From Halorubrum saccharovorum DSM 1137 (GTDB lineage Archaea; Halobacteriota; Halobacteria; Halobacteriales; Haloferacaceae), in NCBI RefSeq assembly GCF_000337915.1, contig NZ_AOJE01000005.1, positions 91,559 through 155,558 on the forward strand: a stretch of DNA of 64,000 nt, written 5' to 3'. Under the pieces are notes generated by a model that saw only the letters and a list, made by a program, of their open reading frames with translations, did no database searches and had not been told where the DNA came from. How positions within the stretch are numbered: position 1 is the first letter of the stretch; each line of letters opens with the position of its first letter. The position numbers were made by a program, and so were the translations under genes. Positions 38,698 to 45,067 of the stretch are shown here, piece after piece.

Positions 38698-39375
38698 ATG
38701 CGCCCGCGAACGCTGCTCGCGCTGCTCCTCGTCGTCCCCCTCGTGGACGCGCTGTTCCTGATCGTCGTCGCGACGCGGCTGGGGTGGGCGGTCACGGTCG
38801 CGCTCGTCGTGTTGACGGCCGTCCTCGGGATGCTCCTCCTCCGCGCCGAGGGGCGCGCGACGCTCGCGAGGGTCCAGCGCAAACTGGCCCGCGGCGAGCC
38901 CCCGACCGACGAACTGCTCGACGGAGGCCTCCTGATCGCCGCCGGCGCGTTCCTGCTCACGCCGGGGCTCGTCACCGACGCGGTCGGGTTTCTGCTCGCG
39001 CTCCCGCTCTCTCGGGTCCCGATCCGCATGGCTCTCAAGAAGTACGTCGTGATCCCGTACCTCGACAGCGAGACCGGCGGGTTCACCACCGGAAACGTCT
39101 ACGTCGGCGGATTCCCGGGCGGTGACGGAGACGGAGCCGGGTTCACCATGGGCGGCTCGTTCGGTGGCGGCAACTTCGGCGGAGGCAACTTCGACGGCGA
39201 CGAGTTCGACGAGGGCGCGTTCGGCGGCAACGACGGCTTCGACCAGCAGGGCTCCGCCGGCGACGACGCCGGCGACGCCTCCGACGGCGACCGATTCGAC
39301 GACCCGGACCACGCCGACGACGTCGTGGACGTGGACTTCACGGTCGAAGACGAAGAGTCGGACCGGGGCGACTGA
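38698..39375 (+). CDS. FxsA-family membrane protein
   Basis: A 225-residue protein. The first 130 residues are the FxsA domain: two or three hydrophobic segments, LLLVVPLVDALFLIVVA, LDGGLLIAAGAFLLTPGLV and TDAVGFLLALP, followed by RMALKKYV. The C-terminal half is a Gly/Asn/Phe-rich GGSFGGGNFGGGNFDGDEF section and an acidic tail, an unusual extension that looks disordered. FxsA in E. coli relieves phage T7 exclusion by the F plasmid; the archaeal role is unknown. Confidence 0.8.
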   Translation: MRPRTLLALLLVVPLVDALFLIVVATRLGWAVTVALVVLTAVLGMLLLRAEGRATLARVQRKLARGEPPTDELLDGGLLIAAGAFLLTPGLVTDAVGFLLALPLSRVPIRMALKKYVVIPYLDSETGGFTTGNVYVGGFPGGDGDGAGFTMGGSFGGGNFGGGNFDGDEFDEGAFGGNDGFDQQGSAGDDAGDASDGDRFDDPDHADDVVDVDFTVEDEESDRGD

Positions 39376-39468
39376 CGCCGTCGCTTTCTACGCGCTCTCC
39401 CCTCCGCGTGACCCGTTTCTGGCGCGATCTGAAACCGGCTGACTGCGGGCGATTCGCGAAAGGAAACC

Positions 39469-39508
39469 CTTAAAATCCTACCAGCGCAACGAATGAATGC
39501 GCTCACCT
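39469..39508 (+). promoter_or_regulatory. Promoter of tRNA-Ile
   Basis: CTTAAAATCC at 39469-39478 is about 36 bases before the tRNA 5' end, which gives a short precursor leader. The T/A run stands out in GC-rich surroundings. Confidence 0.5.
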
Positions 39509-39582
39509 GGGCCAATAGCTCAGTCAGGTTGAGCGCTCGGCTGATAACCGGGAGGTCCACGGTTCAAATCCGTGTTGGCCCA
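39509..39582 (+). tRNA. tRNA-Ile (GAT anticodon)
   Basis: A 74-nt cloverleaf. The acceptor arm is GGGCCAA (39509-39515) with TTGGCCC (39575-39581) and discriminator A39582. The D-arm is GCTC/GAGC. The anticodon stem CTCGG/CCGGG encloses CTGATAA with anticodon GAT at 39543-39545. The T-arm is CACGG-TTCAAAT-CCGTG. No CCA is encoded. Accessory island material begins directly downstream. Confidence 0.95.
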
Positions 39583-39623
39583 CCTACTGTCCGCTCGGTC
39601 TTTGACCGGGCGAGATTGGTGGG

Positions 39624-39694
39624 CTGGGACTCCCCAGCCACCCAATTTCGGTCTTCTACACCATTAGGGGCACCGCTAGCGAGTCTTGTCCGGG
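39624..39694. repeat. Direct repeat copy A next to tRNA-Ile
   Basis: This 71-bp copy matches copy B at 41731-41788 almost completely, apart from a 12-base insertion, one single-base gap and three substitutions. Shared core words include CTGGGACTCCCC, CACCCAATTTCGGT and GTCTTGTCCGGG. Its left part forms a hairpin (39618-39643). It starts 41 bases after the tRNA end. Confidence 0.8.
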
Positions 39695-39755
39695 CTAGAA
39701 TTAAGCCGGTAGTCACCGCCGTCCCCCGATCTGCGTTAGCCGAGGTGGTCTCGGC

Positions 39756-40052
39756 ATGATGTTGCTCCGATCTCACAGTAGCCGGAGCAACTGCCTCCAG
39801 TGTGGCGCTCACGTTCCGAGCGACTTCCGACGAGTCCACGGCGACGACGACGATCGCGCGCACCGCTGCCCCGAGTGCGACTCGTGGGTGCGGATCTGTG
39901 AGTGGAGTGCGGCGTCGAAGGACGTGCCGACGACGAACGCGAAGACGATCCCTGCCGCAACGCGAGGGAACCGCAGAGCGGAGGACCGTCAGGATGACGC
40001 TCTTCGTCCGAGCTTTCGAACTCTAGAATCCGTCCGCCGGTGCACGCACTAA
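39756..40052 (+). CDS. Small zinc-ribbon protein, DUF7563-like
   Basis: A 98-residue frame whose first 50 residues are convincing: CLQCGAHVPSDFRRVHG and HRCPECDSWVRICE give a CxxC/CxxC zinc ribbon like the DUF7563-type proteins found in many haloarchaeal accessory regions. The remainder (TIPAATRGNRRAEDRQ) is Arg-rich and less protein-like, so the end may be frameshifted. It is in the island after tRNA-Ile. Confidence 0.5.
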   Translation: MMLLRSHSSRSNCLQCGAHVPSDFRRVHGDDDDRAHRCPECDSWVRICEWSAASKDVPTTNAKTIPAATRGNRRAEDRQDDALRPSFRTLESVRRCTH

Positions 40053-40182
40053 CGTCGTCGACGCGGCCCGCCTGCGCTGGCAGCGCGACGCCGAACAGAG
40101 GAAGGATCATGACCCCGAGCCTTCGCAGTCTGCTGGAATCGATGCTTAAATTAACATGACCCGTGAGGGTTAGCTACCTACT

Positions 40183-41100
40183 CTATTCGTCTCCGGTTGC
40201 ACTGATTTCGTCAGAGCCAGAAGCATCAGTGTTACTGTCTCCACCACCACTAGCGCTGGTTGACTCATTTTCTACGCTGACGTTGAAAGTGGACGTAGTG
40301 GTAAGGATAGCTGGGTGTCCACTCGCGTTATTCTGCAGCACATCGTACGGAATTACATCCGCGGAATAACTCGTGATCGGTGAGCCAACGTCATCAGCAC
40401 CCGCCATCACAAGCGGTGACGACCCACTGACATCGCTCTCAGGAATGTCGTAGTCCGCGGCGATACTGGAGTTTGGTGCGTGGAAGCTTACTGTATACCG
40501 GAGTTGGACCTCACTGTTTTCAGTAGTGCCATCAGACGGGTTGAAGAACCTATCAACGGTTCCTGCTTGTTCGTAATTCCCGTTCTCGAAGCCATCTTCA
40601 GGAACATCTTGCGCTACAGACGTGCCGCTGAAGAAGTTCTCAGGTTGACTAACTCCGGAGTAGTCTGGACCCGTTCGGTCGTAGAGTGTGATCCCGTCGG
40701 ACCCACCGAGCCACTCTCCAGCAATAGCGAATTCACCAGAGTAGCCGGGCCCCGTTTCGACTTCGGTACCGGGGTCATCGGTGCCATTCAGCCATCCGGT
40801 AGCTCTGAAAACGGGAGCAAAGTCGCCGACATTCTCGTTTTCGACATCGTGTGGTGCTGCCTCAATAAGAACTCTCACCTTCCCCACGACTTCATCAAAC
40901 CCATCCCAGGAAACGTTGATATTGGGCTGGATGGACACTCTATCGATCTCGCCCTGAGCGGTCGCAACACTAGCTTCGCCAGAGCCGATGCTGAGCGATG
41001 AAGCGGCTGCGCTGCCCGACATCGTACCGATACCCACACCTGCAGCGGTTGCTGTCGCTCCGATACCTCCGATCGTCTTGAGTATATCTCTTCTCTGCAT
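40183..41100 (-). CDS. Tat-exported acidic protein, unknown family
   Basis: A 305-residue secreted protein. The N-terminus MQRRDILKTIGGIGATATAAG has an RRDILK Tat motif, and cleavage is likely after SGSAAA. The mature part is beta-rich and Asp/Gly/Ser-rich with several N-glycosylation sequons (INVSW, LNGTD, NNASG, NVSVENES). No lipobox, membrane segment or C-terminal sorting signal is apparent. The gene has noticeably lower GC and a different codon bias from its neighbours. I recognise a haloarchaeal family resemblance but no function; a cell-surface or viral particle role is possible. Confidence 0.7.
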   Translation of the reverse strand: MQRRDILKTIGGIGATATAAGVGIGTMSGSAAASSLSIGSGEASVATAQGEIDRVSIQPNINVSWDGFDEVVGKVRVLIEAAPHDVENENVGDFAPVFRATGWLNGTDDPGTEVETGPGYSGEFAIAGEWLGGSDGITLYDRTGPDYSGVSQPENFFSGTSVAQDVPEDGFENGNYEQAGTVDRFFNPSDGTTENSEVQLRYTVSFHAPNSSIAADYDIPESDVSGSSPLVMAGADDVGSPITSYSADVIPYDVLQNNASGHPAILTTTSTFNVSVENESTSASGGGDSNTDASGSDEISATGDE

Positions 41101-41528
41101 ATGTATTCGGACTGCTCCGTTGTTGATCGCACGCGACCCACGAGACGCCGATACACGACATCGGACATCACCCGGGGGGCGCTCAACTAGTTCTATGGGG
41201 ACAGCCCCATATCGTTATGATACTCCAGAGGTGGTTCAGGGTCGGACCGAAAATCTGGCCGGGGTGTTCTGCTCCACCCAGAATTCCGATTCAATAGCTT
41301 CAGGTTCGGCCTGAGATCCGTTCACGGCGTGTGTTGAGGAGTTGAATTCGGCTACGGGAATCGGAATTCTCAGACCGCGCCGACTGGCAACTGAATCCTC
41401 AAATGGTGAGCGATTCGATCGGAACCCTACGTGGCTTTCGCGACAGTTCAATCGTCCACGGGGACGACGTCACGGACGGGGTCGAGCGGGTCGCCGGCGT
41501 CGTCGTCGAGCGCCTAGGGGAGTCGGTG
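41101..41528. other. Gene-free stretch with inverted repeats
   Basis: I see no convincing gene in these roughly 430 bases. It contains a TATGGGG-ACAG-CCCCATA inverted repeat at 41194-41211, upstream of the exported-protein gene and operator-like, and the 13-bp inverted-repeat pair at 41280-41370. The sequence is otherwise unremarkable. Confidence 0.5.
41280..41370. repeat. 91-bp element with 13-bp inverted repeats
   Basis: AGAATTCCGATTC (41280-41292) and GAATCGGAATTCT (41358-41370) are exact reverse complements. Pairing continues inward by a further four bases (TAGC/GCTA) after a 2x3 internal loop. The 65-base interior has no gene. It resembles a MITE or a transposon end pair. Confidence 0.5.
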
Positions 41529-41665
41529 ATGGCGGACGCCGCCTTCCCTATCCCGGCGGGAAGAGTCGCTTCGTGTCATGGATTCTCGATCGGACACCCG
41601 AGCACACCTGCTTCGTGGAGTATTCGTGGGCACGGCCGACATCCCGAGTTCAATAGACCTGTTAA
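41529..41665 (+). pseudogene. DNA adenine methylase N-terminal remnant
   Basis: From ATG 41529 the sequence reads MADAAFP; after one lost base it continues in the next frame as YPGGKSRFVSWILDRTPEHTCFVE, matching the N-terminus of Dam-type adenine methylases (YPGGKxxL...IPxHxxYVEPFxG). A second frameshift follows: VFVGTAD in the alternate frame corresponds to VFGGAAG. The gene then ends without the catalytic DPPY region. It is a fragment with at least two frameshifts and is not expected to be active. Confidence 0.65.
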
Positions 41666-41730
41666 GCCGTATGATTCAGACAATTTTAGGTGGGCGATAA
41701 AGACGAAGGGTCACTCCGTGTAGATGGACT

Positions 41731-41788
41731 CTGGGACTCCCCGACCACCCAATTTCGGTTTCTACACCGCTAGCGCGTCTTGTCCGGG
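41731..41788. repeat. Direct repeat copy B
   Basis: The 58-bp partner of copy A at 39624-39694, lacking the 12-base insertion present in copy A. It ends about 60 bases before the histidine kinase ATPase remnant, so the kinase break lies at or near this repeat. Confidence 0.8.
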
Positions 41789-41844
41789 GTGAAAGTAATC
41801 GCTGTTCTACTTCCGATGAACGGGCTCTTGCACTAAGCCTATAG

Positions 41845-42198
41845 ACTTGTTCACCCCTGTTACACCTCCTGGAGAACCTCTTTCGCAATACGATCGATCA
41901 CAACGAGCCGCCCGTCTCTCTCACTATCGGACGTATCGACAGGACCACCGAAGACCGTCTGTCCACGACCGGATTTTTCGTTGCGGATGCCGGAAAGGGA
42001 ATACCTCCTGACGAACGCGACGAGGTGTTCGCTCACGGCTACAGGAGCGACCAAGACGGGACGGGGTTCGGCCTCTCAATTGTTCGCCACGTGGCCGAAG
42101 CCCACAACTGGGACGTGGCACTCACGGAGGGGCGCGACGGTGGGGCACGCTTCGAGTTCACGGCTGTCGAATTCGCCCGGGGCACAGTCGAGCGGTAA
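41845..42198 (+). pseudogene. Histidine kinase C-terminal (HATPase) remnant
   Basis: From about 41857 the reading frame gives LLENLFRNTIDHNEP (N-box), ADAGKGIPPDERDEVF (G1), DGTGFGLSIVRHVAEAHNW (G2) and ends EFARGTVER. The HisKA domain and everything before it are missing; an in-frame stop lies at 41842-41844. This is the ATPase end of a histidine kinase like the two intact ones in this window. The remaining 110 residues could still be expressed but would lack a phosphorylatable histidine. It lies beside repeat copy B. Confidence 0.8.
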
Positions 42199-42296
42199 AC
42201 GCTGCTGTACAGGAGATCGCCGACTCAGTCGCTAGTGACTCTCAAAACGGGGTCCGGCTCTCGTCGTCTCGGCGGTAACCGTCTCGGCGTAACCGT

Positions 42297-42701
42297 CTAG
42301 GCGTCAACTTCCGCGCCCGCAAGCTCGTCAGCGAGGAACTCGGCGATCGACACGTCTTCCTCTTCGACGAACCGCGCGACCTCCTCGCCGTCGGCAGTCT
42401 CGACGACGACCGTCGGGATCAGCTCGATCCCGTACTCGTCGACGGCCTCCCCCTCCTTGCCGTTCGGGCCCTTCGTCACCGGGAAGTCCTCGATCCGGTC
42501 GTCGGGGACGCCGGCCGCCGCGAGCGCCGCGCCGAACGCCGGGAGCTGTCGCTGACAGTCGCCGCACCAGTCGCCGCCCCAGACTTTGAACCGGTAGTCG
42601 CGGGTTCCGAGCGCGTCGAGCACGGCGGGATCGAACTCGTCGTCGGGGGGAGTCGGGGCGTCGGCGTCGTCGAAGTGTGGATCGAGCGTTTCGAGCGTCA
42701 T
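42297..42701 (-). CDS. Thioredoxin-fold protein with WCGDC active site
   Basis: A 134-residue thioredoxin-family protein. KVWGGDWCGDCQRQLPAFGA places a WCxxC redox pair at the expected position, ELIPTVVVETADGEE contains the cis-proline turn (IPT), and a C-terminal helix FLADELAG follows. The CGDC dipeptide and the separate N-terminal acidic extension distinguish it from classic CGPC thioredoxins. Probably a cytoplasmic disulfide reductase. It is divergent from the cysteine synthase gene. Confidence 0.8.
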   Translation of the reverse strand: MTLETLDPHFDDADAPTPPDDEFDPAVLDALGTRDYRFKVWGGDWCGDCQRQLPAFGAALAAAGVPDDRIEDFPVTKGPNGKEGEAVDEYGIELIPTVVVETADGEEVARFVEEEDVSIAEFLADELAGAEVDA

Positions 42702-42822
42702 ACCCGGTCGCACGCCGGCGACGCTTGTAAACGCCTCGTCGGTGGCAACGGGTCGGCGGCTCTCCGGACACGCCTTGCCGCAGTCCGCGGGGCATTTGAG
42801 TGGCGCCCCCCTCGGGTCGCAC

Positions 42823-43740
42823 ATGGACGAGGACGTGTTGGACGCGCTCGGATCGCCGCTCGTGCGAGTCGGCTCGCCGCCCGGGACGACGGTGGCGGCG
42901 AAGGTCGAGTCGCACAACCCGGGCGGTTCCGCGAAGGACCGCCCGGCGCTGTACATGGTTGAGGCCGCCGAGGAGGCCGGCGACCTGACGCCCGGCGACG
43001 GAATCGTCGAACCCACCTCCGGCAACACGGGTATCGGGCTGGCGATGGTCGGAGCGGTGAAGGGGTACGACGTGACGCTCGTGATGCCCGAAGGGAAGTC
43101 GGTCGAGCGCCGGCGGCTCATGCTCGCGTACGGCGCCGACGTGGAGCTCGTCGAGGGCGACATCTCCGAGGCCAAAGAGCGCGCCGACGCGCTCGAACGC
43201 GAGGAGGGGATGACCCAGCTCCGCCAGTTCGAGAACCCCGCGAACCCGCGCGCTCACTACGAGACCACCGGACCGGAGATCCTCGATCAGGTGGACGGTC
43301 GGCCCGTCGACGCCCTCGTGGCGGGCGTCGGCACGGGGGGTACCCTCACCGGGATCGGGCGGCGTCTCCGAGAGGCGTTCCCCGACGTGCGGATCGACGC
43401 GGTCGAGCCGAGCGACAACGCCGTCCTCTCCGGCGGCGAGCCCGGCGTCGACGAGTTCCAGGGGATGGGACCGGGGTTCGTCGCGCCGAACCTCGACACG
43501 GACCTGCTCGACGGGGTGCACACGGTCGACATCGAGGACGCCGAGGCCGAGTGTCGCCGGCTCGCGCGCGAAGAGGGGCTGCTCGTCGGCCAGTCCTCCG
43601 GCGCCTCCAACCTCGCGGCCAAAGACGTCGCCGCCGAACTCCGGGAGTCGGGCGCGTTCGCCGGCGACGAACCACTCGTCGTCACCGTCTTCTGGGACAG
43701 CGGCGAGCGCTACCTCACCGCCGGGACCTTCGACGAGTGA
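42823..43740 (+). CDS. cysK: Cysteine synthase-family PLP enzyme (O-acetylserine sulfhydrylase-like)
   Basis: A 305-residue beta-family PLP enzyme. NPGGSAKDRPALYM has the PLP lysine (K38), TSGNTGIGLAMVG is the substrate and phosphate loop, GVGTGGTLTGIG the cofactor cradle. The start DEDVLDALGSPLVRVG matches the family after a few residues. It would form cysteine from an activated serine and sulfide; cystathionine beta-synthase activity is the main alternative. Divergent from a thioredoxin-like gene, a plausible sulfur-metabolism pairing. Confidence 0.85.
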   Translation: MDEDVLDALGSPLVRVGSPPGTTVAAKVESHNPGGSAKDRPALYMVEAAEEAGDLTPGDGIVEPTSGNTGIGLAMVGAVKGYDVTLVMPEGKSVERRRLMLAYGADVELVEGDISEAKERADALEREEGMTQLRQFENPANPRAHYETTGPEILDQVDGRPVDALVAGVGTGGTLTGIGRRLREAFPDVRIDAVEPSDNAVLSGGEPGVDEFQGMGPGFVAPNLDTDLLDGVHTVDIEDAEAECRRLAREEGLLVGQSSGASNLAAKDVAAELRESGAFAGDEPLVVTVFWDSGERYLTAGTFDE

Positions 43741-43894
43741 GCGGGTCGACACGATCGGGGCCCGTCTGCGAGCGCGCTCGTCCGGCGGACGCCACCGGTC
43801 CGATTCGCACGGAGAGTGACCGTCGGCCGCGGTGCCGTCCGGACTCGAAACCGTTGGCGCCGTCCCGCCCTGACGAATCGCCAGTGACGGTCGG

Positions 43895-45067
43895 ATGAGC
43901 TGGCAGTACCGCCACACGGTGCTGTCGCTGTGCATGCTCGCGTTTCTGGTGACGTACTTCGCCAGGCTGGCGATCAGCCCCGTCGTCCCGCTGATCGTCG
44001 ACGACTTCACGGTGTCGAACACCGCCATCGGGTTCGCGCTCTCCGGGATGTGGCTGGCGTACGGCGCCGCCCAGTTCCCGAGCGGCGTGCTCGCGGACCG
44101 GTACGGCGAGCGCGCCGTGATCCTCGTCGCCGTCGGCGGCACCGCGGCGACGAGCGTCGTCCTCGCTCTCGCGCCCGTCTTCCCCGCGTTCGTGCTGGCG
44201 GCGGTGCTCTTGGGGCTCGTCGCCGGGCTCCACTACGCGGTGGCGACGACGCTGCTCTCGCGGACGTTCGACGACCTCGGGACGGCGCTCGGGCTTCACT
44301 CGATCGGGGGGCCGCTCGCCGGGCTCGTGGCGCCCGTCGCCGCCGCGTGGGTCGGGGTCCGGTACGGCTGGCGTCCCGCGGTCGCGCTGGCCGCGCTGGT
44401 CGGCGTACCCGTGTTCCTGCTGTTCGCGTGGCGCGTCCGCCCGACCGAGCCGCGGCGCCCCGACCAGCCGATGCGGGAGCGGTTCGCGCTCGCGCCGCTC
44501 GTCGAGCTCCTCTCCCGGCCGAACGTCCTCCTCCCGCTGTTCGTCGCGATGACCGGCACGTACGTGGTTCAGGGCGTGATGTCGTTTCTCCCCACCTTCC
44601 TCGTGGAGTTCCGCGGCTTCTCGTCGTCGGGCGCCGCCGGGGTGTTCTCGGCGTTCTTCGTCGTCCGCGCCGTCGCACAGGTGGGGCTCGGGCGACTGTC
44701 GGATCGAGCGGGCCGCGACGTCGCCATCGGCGCGGCGATGCTCGCGGGCGCGATCGGAACCGCCGCGTTCGTCCTCGGTCCGGGCTTCGCCGGCGTCGCG
44801 GTCGCGGTGCTGCTGGCCGGCTCCGGCGCGAGCTTCTTCTCGGCGATCGACCCCCGGTTCATGGACGCGCTCGGCGACGCGGAGCGCGGCGCCGGGTTCG
44901 GACTCGTTCGGACGGTGTACACCGTGATCGGCTCCGCGGGCTCCGTCGGCGTCGGACTCGCGGCCGACCTGTTCGGCTGGGGCGTCTCTTTCGGGATCCT
45001 GGCGGCCCTGTTCGGGGTCACGTTCGCCGCGCTCGTCGCGAACTGGGCGCTCGGGACGGGGTACTGA
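43895..45067 (+). CDS. MFS transporter (paralogue 1)
   Basis: A 390-residue major facilitator with about 12 hydrophobic segments. It starts MSWQYRHTVLSLCMLAFLVT and contains LSGMWLAYGAAQFPSGVLAD with the RYGER loop, and RPDQPMRERFALAPLVELL. It matches the transporter at 58592-59776 closely throughout, so the two are paralogues. Substrate unknown; the D-R-x-G-E-R loop suits a drug or organic-acid antiporter. Confidence 0.85.
   Translation: MSWQYRHTVLSLCMLAFLVTYFARLAISPVVPLIVDDFTVSNTAIGFALSGMWLAYGAAQFPSGVLADRYGERAVILVAVGGTAATSVVLALAPVFPAFVLAAVLLGLVAGLHYAVATTLLSRTFDDLGTALGLHSIGGPLAGLVAPVAAAWVGVRYGWRPAVALAALVGVPVFLLFAWRVRPTEPRRPDQPMRERFALAPLVELLSRPNVLLPLFVAMTGTYVVQGVMSFLPTFLVEFRGFSSSGAAGVFSAFFVVRAVAQVGLGRLSDRAGRDVAIGAAMLAGAIGTAAFVLGPGFAGVAVAVLLAGSGASFFSAIDPRFMDALGDAERGAGFGLVRTVYTVIGSAGSVGVGLAADLFGWGVSFGILAALFGVTFAALVANWALGTGY

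Follow-up and report, generated by a model that had tools for sequence, protein, structure and literature searches.

Why should a haloarchaeal chromosome carry two near-identical direct repeats 2.1 kb apart, just behind a tRNA-Ile gene? The repeats, here called copy A and copy B, lie in a 64,000-nucleotide stretch of Halorubrum saccharovorum DSM 1137 (assembly GCF_000337915.1, contig NZ_AOJE01000005.1, positions 91,559 to 155,558 of the forward strand), which we call the window and whose numbering we use throughout. A first-pass annotation had described the pair as differing by a 12-base gap, a single-base gap and three substitutions, and had proposed either an element end or insertion site, or the tail (3′ end) of some repeated gene, for instance one for a transposase. 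The first of these proposals is borne out: betapleolipovirus-like elements that integrate at tRNA-Ile have this repeat as their attachment-side arm. Very probably, the two copies are two generations of the same attachment-side arm of viruses of the Halorubrum pleomorphic virus 9 (HRPV9) type, A the later and B the older, placed at the same tRNA-Ile and both since decayed.

Copy A at the tRNA-Ile gene

The tRNA-Ile gene ends (39584) 40 bases before copy A, and the sequence that follows it is viral in character. In a phage collection, 39595–40101 matches one virus, HRPV9 (a Betapleolipovirus, NC_048160, present under two accessions), at 79.4% identity over 507 bases (E 1e-117). The local alignment to HRPV9 begins within the tRNA: a 16-base identity (CCGTGTTGGCCCACCT), made up of the final 15 bases of tRNA-Ile and one base beyond, forms the core of an attachment (att) site; in HRPV9, this core sits near the end of the integrase gene. 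The viral site, attP, of HRPV9 and its relatives is described in excerpts of one study as lying within a coding sequence (CDS) between the integrase and CxxC genes, which is whole only in the circular virus (Dyall-Smith et al. 2021, PMC7911831). Behind the core, the window keeps the viral order, with the 3′ half of this bridging frame followed by the CxxC gene. Copy A belongs to an attL. In an Rfam search of 39300–42300, the tRNA alone reached its gathering score.

The element itself is largely gone. Among the 29 HRPV9 proteins used as queries against window positions 39001–44000, three found a match (the bridging CDS, the CxxC protein and the antisense open reading frame (ORF) ORF28), and the spike, membrane-protein and replication gene block found none, nor did the tyrosine integrase by tblastn. 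With three of 29 proteins matched, the window element is a remnant rather than a provirus.

Copy B and a probable succession of integrations

Global alignment of the two copies gave exactly the gaps and substitutions first described. The own genome (a 3.42 Mb draft, searched at E ≤ 1) holds two matching places only, B being recovered at E 2.9e-10 with a 91-base query, and no third copy was found in that search. The local score between A and B is 69, compared with 21 for B against the rest of the 38–44 kb region and a best score of 29, far below, among 300 mononucleotide shuffles of B. In A, CACC stands on both sides of the 12-base gap (CACC-ATTAGGGG-CACC), and B has a single CACC, as would be left by a slippage deletion.

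Copy B is homologous to the same arm as copy A. It matches the viral arms of other genomes over 71–81 alignment columns, and HRPV9 over 71, and the match extends past the hairpin that is common to ordinary chromosomes. This last point bears on the idea that the repeats are nothing other than the conserved trailer of tRNA-Ile, with no virus involved. The hairpin part does stand directly behind tRNA-Ile in 48 of the 49 genomes of the genus with a tRNA match, whether a provirus is present or not. However, A and B share sequence past the hairpins (GCTAGCG.GTCTTGTCCGGG) that is proper to HRPV9-type arms, and the window goes on as HRPV9 for ~400 bp beyond the repeat, which makes a trailer without a virus highly unlikely. 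Copy B also includes GCTAGCGCGTCTTGTCCGGG, which by eye is missing from trailers that have no viral arm.

Copy B is nevertheless much more decayed than copy A, scoring 12.8 bits (E 0.09) with a model of the hairpin module described below, versus 91.4 bits for A. As a candidate far-end att copy, it retains the arm without the core, the sole TGTTGGCCCACC in the window being at the tRNA, and hairpin 1 is gone as well. A decayed third copy in the genome G129, at 38.9 bits, is comparable.

These features are best accounted for by repeated integration. Recombination between the attP core of a betapleolipovirus-like element (CCGTGTTGGCCCACCT) and the same sequence at the 3′ end of tRNA-Ile(GAT) would restore the tRNA and leave the viral arm (two hairpins, leader and CxxC gene) immediately adjoining it. 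The restored tRNA would then receive another such element, which would displace the older arm to its own far end. Both elements would then decay, with loss of integrase, replication and virion genes; copy B would lose its core, hairpin 1 and the 12 bases flanked by CACC; and the interval between A and B would come to be occupied by an IS6-type end, the gene for an exported protein and fragments of other genes. We infer this order of events, and with it that B once carried a core. Weighing against such a succession, no integrase trace was found between A and B, copy B has no recognisable core, and nothing clearly viral lies downstream of B, where a histidine-kinase fragment could be host DNA. 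Because there is neither an integrase trace in that interval nor a core in B, it is by inference that B is taken as a former att junction.

Copy B might instead derive from copy A by local duplication or recombination, as the finding of two copies only in the genome, with the same end region kept in both, would allow. Yet A is no closer to B than other arms are: B is 77% identical to A (71 query bases) and also 77% identical to the arms at loci L004, L087 and L013 (71–77 columns). In addition, displaced second copies of the module are routine at integrated elements. We therefore consider a local duplication improbable and favor two successive integrations.

Proviruses and small elements in relatives

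Larger counterparts of this arrangement are present in related genomes. In G112, 18.1 kb separate the copy at tRNA-Ile from a second one; 21 of the 29 HRPV9 query proteins find a match in this interval, and the integrase at its end is 98% identical to that of HRPV9. In G129, 14.7 kb lie between the copies, again with 21 of the 29 query proteins, and the integrase is 96% identical. A review, in the excerpts available, takes the HRPV9 integrase to differ from the SNJ2 type at one site and calls it unclear whether it is functional (PMC7547991). That integrases of this type have been active is supported by the proviruses, which have paired att sites and integrases sharing 96–98% identity with that of HRPV9.

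Copies of the repeat elsewhere are neither always single nor unlinked to insertions. Among the displaced copies, meaning those that do not adjoin a tRNA, 22 of the 25 whose surroundings were checked have an integrase within ~200 bp. They come from G017, G134 and G141 (two each) and from G040, G051, G056, G065, G068, G084, G094, G104, G112, G117, G118, G129, G139, G149, G164 and G246. No integrase adjoins the remaining three, which are copy B of the window, a G134 copy that lies at the end of its contig, and the third, decayed copy in G129. The check omitted G148, L132 and L133, and the distal copy of G044 lies beyond the stretch examined.

This distribution also bears on the insertion sequence (IS) or transposase reading, in which the repeats would be the ends of an IS or the 3′ end of its transposase gene. 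It would suit this reading that the repeats are direct and that an IS6-type remnant lies close by, and the minus-strand SPDKTR or TPDKTR before a stop, on which the first-pass annotation had drawn, is literally present in both copies. However, the PDKTR frame is open for only 14–15 codons upstream in 10 of the 11 matches examined, being short in both window copies and in HRPV9 and open for 328 codons in the one exception (L009), and on this ground we reject a transposase 3′ end. The nearby coding signal sits on the plus strand, in the CxxC gene. The multiple dispersed copies that an IS would give were not found in the own genome, where the two copies lie 2.1 kb from each other; the IS6-type remnant occupies a stretch of its own (40100–40161); and copies in other genomes sit at tRNA-Ile or adjoin a tyrosine integrase. 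We give IS ends or a transposase end next to no credence, and take the repeats as arms of integrating elements.

Not all of these elements are large. Intervals of 1.8–3.8 kb occur in G065, G056, G141, G051, G139 and G068, so the 2.1 kb of the window is not unusual at the tRNA-Ile site. Small integrase-bearing elements use the same tRNA-Ile site as HRPV9-like viruses, and the G065 element contains one long integrase ORF. The tRNA-Ile elements of 1.8–3.0 kb (L045 2771–4545, L187, L188 and L094) have an integrase related to that of G065 (72–79% identical in the last three) and two att modules, and are either minimal integrative elements or relics. In other haloarchaeal families (L132, L133, L165, L170, L171, L182, L183 and L184), inspection by eye showed the T-arm again, in inverted form, behind tRNA-Ile (CGGATTTGA or with one base different), and L132 and L133 also have a repeat of the tRNA 3′ half there. 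These inverted and repeated tRNA parts suggest another att design.

A two-hairpin module behind tRNA-Ile

Immediately behind the core, some 70 bases form two hairpins, with z scores of −3.4 to −5.8 in six examples. In an alignment of 42 copies, A1, both-sided changes were found in 11 of the 23 pairs, and the covariation score was 0.298, versus a shuffle mean of 0.146 and at most 0.100 in slid versions. By the count of doubly changed pairs, a slide of +2 reaches 10 versus 11, and one of 500 shuffles reaches 11. The signal comes from hairpin 1 and, within hairpin 2, from the outer stem. The inner stem frequently fails to pair (at one pair, only 20 of the 42 copies do), 8 of the 15 pairs in its helix vary only by unpaired cells, and in other lineages it is poorly conserved. 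RNAalifold, run on A1, predicted hairpin 1 alone and not hairpin 2. Since G-U pairs are frequent, an RNA suits the pattern better than a DNA cruciform. A1 comprises 42 of 54 distinct rows, and the structure that was counted had been folded from the window sequence. Its rows were required to contain CTCCCCAGCCA, for lack of which the tRNA-Ile locus L094 was dropped, so the invariance of these 11 bases in A1 is by construction; variants of CTCCCCAGCCA do exist (L159, L166 and L169).

A covariance model recovered the module in 50 of 52 genomes of the genus, and directly behind tRNA-Ile in the 48 of 49 mentioned above. Linkage was counted on the 61 rows of at least 38.9 bits, with 14 rows of 18.6–29 bits omitted. 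A further 13 module copies of at least 38.9 bits are unlinked to a tRNA, and an integrase adjoins 10 of these; the other three are a copy at a contig end (G134, C84), one in G148 whose surroundings were not fetched, and the decayed G129 copy. Of the 391 genomes of the class, 106 contain a short pattern taken from hairpin 2, as do 44 of the 46 of the genus; the reversed control pattern was found, by reading, in 8 genomes. Outside the family, the pattern was found in 17 places, 16 of which made loci: tRNA-Ile immediately precedes 13 of these, and the other 3 follow a displaced tRNA 3′ end. The 17 genomes of the family without the exact pattern include, by eye, 14 with a variant and three without the module (G007, G057 and G169). 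With these three, and with G246, where the module is 2.2 kb from the tRNA, we reject the strict idea that the module is essential to tRNA-Ile.

The module is present in HRPV9 too, with its spacing from the core unchanged. A wide spread among catalogued viruses was not found in the two viral collections searched, where HRPV9 stands alone: scans of viral_contigs for hairpin 2 returned one sequence of 16,159 bases, the size of HRPV9, and the phage collection returned HRPV9 under its two accessions. A betapleolipovirus replication-origin hairpin has been published and, in the excerpts available, sits downstream of the rep gene (PMC13107129). We do not equate the module with that hairpin, as the published origin is downstream of rep and not at att.

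The simplest reading is that the module is a structured trailer of tRNA-Ile that is supplied anew by integrating elements. Processing, termination and insulation from viral genes are candidate roles. More broadly, but with somewhat less than even confidence, we propose that many haloarchaeal tRNA-Ile(GAU) genes have a structured RNA trailer module (a covarying hairpin, then a hairpin on ACTCCCCAGCCACC), and that the copies that elements carry behind attP restore both the tRNA end and the trailer. In a provirus, with the tRNA-Ile promoter on one side and the CxxC gene and further viral genes on the other, the module could then separate two transcription units. Neither such a module nor HRPV9-like integration at tRNA-Ile was found described among the titles and abstract openings listed from the open-licence literature, a scope that does not cover the original HRPV9 report.

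The bridging coding sequence and the CxxC gene

The SNJ2 counterpart of the bridging CDS, ORF26, is expressed and needed for replication, according to excerpts of PMC13107129. In the 3′ half of the bridging CDS (codons 8–42 in 10 HRPV9-type arms), differences are spread fairly evenly over the three codon positions (232/178/255), without the pattern typical of a protein, and with a ratio of nonsynonymous to synonymous differences per site (pN/pS) of 0.68 (0.75 in the +1 frame). The CxxC gene, which served as the control (8 sequences), has 98/95/426 and a pN/pS of 0.20, and synonymous differences per site are 0.18 in the bridging-CDS half versus 0.40 in the CxxC gene. Among 22 loci that were read, 13 keep the bridging frame open; the codon analysis covered 10 of these 13 (L006, L020 and L046 omitted), and the control 8 of those 10. 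In a sample that is small, was picked for an open frame and includes proviral relics, this pattern may point to a constraint on the nucleic acid, and the need for ORF26 in SNJ2 keeps us from rejecting a protein-coding role.

The CxxC gene, on the other hand, is under clear codon constraint in the 8 arms. This gene of 80 amino acids (aa) is missing from the HRPV9 record, where the antisense ORF28 is annotated (L033 15544–16089); ORF28 is probably a misannotation. A figure legend among the excerpts of PMC7911831 does cover the CxxC gene of HRPV9. Ahead of this gene, the leader (39671–39759) differs hardly at all from that of HRPV9. Read by eye, the CACC.CC in the leader could base-pair with the GAGGTGGT that precedes the start codon, and such pairing might act as a translational switch.

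The island between tRNA-Ile and the thioredoxin-like gene

The features of the locus are listed in Table 1. GC content is 0.54–0.58 over 40000–41999, 0.63–0.66 in the adjacent blocks, and 0.67–0.76 before 39000 and after 42500. The same tRNA and thioredoxin flanks are found in five close relatives (G120, G121, G123, G125 and G130) with 1.3–4.3 kb between them, and the island contents of these relatives are largely non-homologous to those of the window, with little in common beyond the module or the arm. The contents of the window island are a patchwork. For example, the methyltransferase fragment is 83.8% identical to a sequence in the tRNA-Ile island of the relative G140.

Table 1. Features around the repeat pair, in window coordinates
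Feature	Coordinates	Strand	Description	Evidence
tRNA-Ile(GAT)	39509–39584	+	Integration target	ARAGORN; Rfam RF00005, 68.7 bits
att core	39570–39585	+	CCGTGTTGGCCCACCT, attL-type junction	Identical in HRPV9
Viral arm	39585–40101	+	HRPV9-like	~79% nucleotide identity
Hairpin 1	39593–39611	+	8-bp stem	Covarying between genomes
Hairpin 2	39612–39649	+	Contains ACTCCCCAGCCACCCAA; copy A starts inside its left arm	
Bridging frame	39613–39759	+	Matches 3′ half of the HRPV9 attP-spanning bridging CDS	Residues 39–86, 83% identity
Copy A (71 nt)	39624–39694	+	Right part of hairpin 2 and start of HRPV9-like arm	
CxxC zinc-ribbon gene	39756–40052	+	DUF7563, phrog_7550; C terminus altered	Residues 1–71 match the HRPV9 counterpart
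IS6-family transposase remnant	40100–40161	+	3′ end	87% to Halorubrum sp. PV6 plasmid
Exported-protein gene	40183–41100	−	Twin-arginine (Tat)-like signal	By reading
DNA methyltransferase fragment	41453–41644	+	Dam-type, by reading	phrog_56, E 7.5e-5 over 26 residues
Copy B (58 nt)	41731–41788	+	Decayed viral arm without att core or hairpin 1	
Histidine-kinase fragment	41860–42198	+	ATPase domain	HATPase_c, E 3.2e-17
Thioredoxin-like gene	42297–42701	−	Conserved chromosomal flank	Pfam matches just below curated cut-offs

The exported-protein gene has no Pfam, PHROGs or NCBIfam match. We set aside the possibility that it is viral cargo, given no match in phage (E 1e-3) or plasmid (E 1e-5) collections. 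Within its own genome (G000) there are 12 matching stretches, itself and partial pieces included, on contigs C45 (L099 and L100), C43, C25 and C44, and on C45 the matches are ~7–10 kb apart. The first part of C45 also contains ORFs of exceptional size (1967 and 1492 aa), in which 3-keto-disaccharide hydrolase, GSDH, malectin and cupredoxin domains occur. One giant ORF there includes two perfect tandem duplications with a period of 90 (L099 5792–5970 and 6556–6734). Artefactual 90-bp direct repeats are reported from other haloarchaeal draft genomes in excerpts of PMC7911831, and by analogy the duplications in L099 may be assembly errors.

Comparison with known integrative elements

An otherwise unexplained repeat thus becomes an ordered pair of integration scars, and tRNA-Ile emerges as a hotspot at which both HRPV9-like viruses and small elements with an integrase insert. 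A double scar of betapleolipovirus-like integration is ordinary in kind, and the trailer module is the part worth testing. If functional, a trailer module common to host and virus would mean that the virus replaces the downstream signals of the gene it enters.

Compared with HRPV9, the window has the same att core, two hairpins, leader and CxxC gene in the same order, but it retains ~520 bp of virus, without the integrase or the other HRPV9 proteins searched. The small tRNA-Ile elements of relatives (G065, 1.8 kb; G056, 1.9 kb; G141, 2.8 kb; G139, 3.0 kb) have direct module copies at a spacing like that of the window, and they hold an integrase where the window interval has none. Among integrative pleolipoviruses, excerpts of the literature place SNJ2 at tRNA-Met, Halfvol1 and Humcor2 at tRNA-Pro, Halfgib1 at tRNA-Arg and Harhisp1 at tRNA-Ala (PMC7911831, PMC8371274, PMC7547991), and the tRNA targets named there for the virus group are Met, Pro, Arg, Ala and Trp (PMC7547991, PMC7911831 and others). 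The window resembles these five in having a tRNA 3′-end target, a short att and a CDS across attP between the integrase and the CxxC gene. It differs from them in that the target is tRNA-Ile and that the att region includes a structured module common to host and virus.

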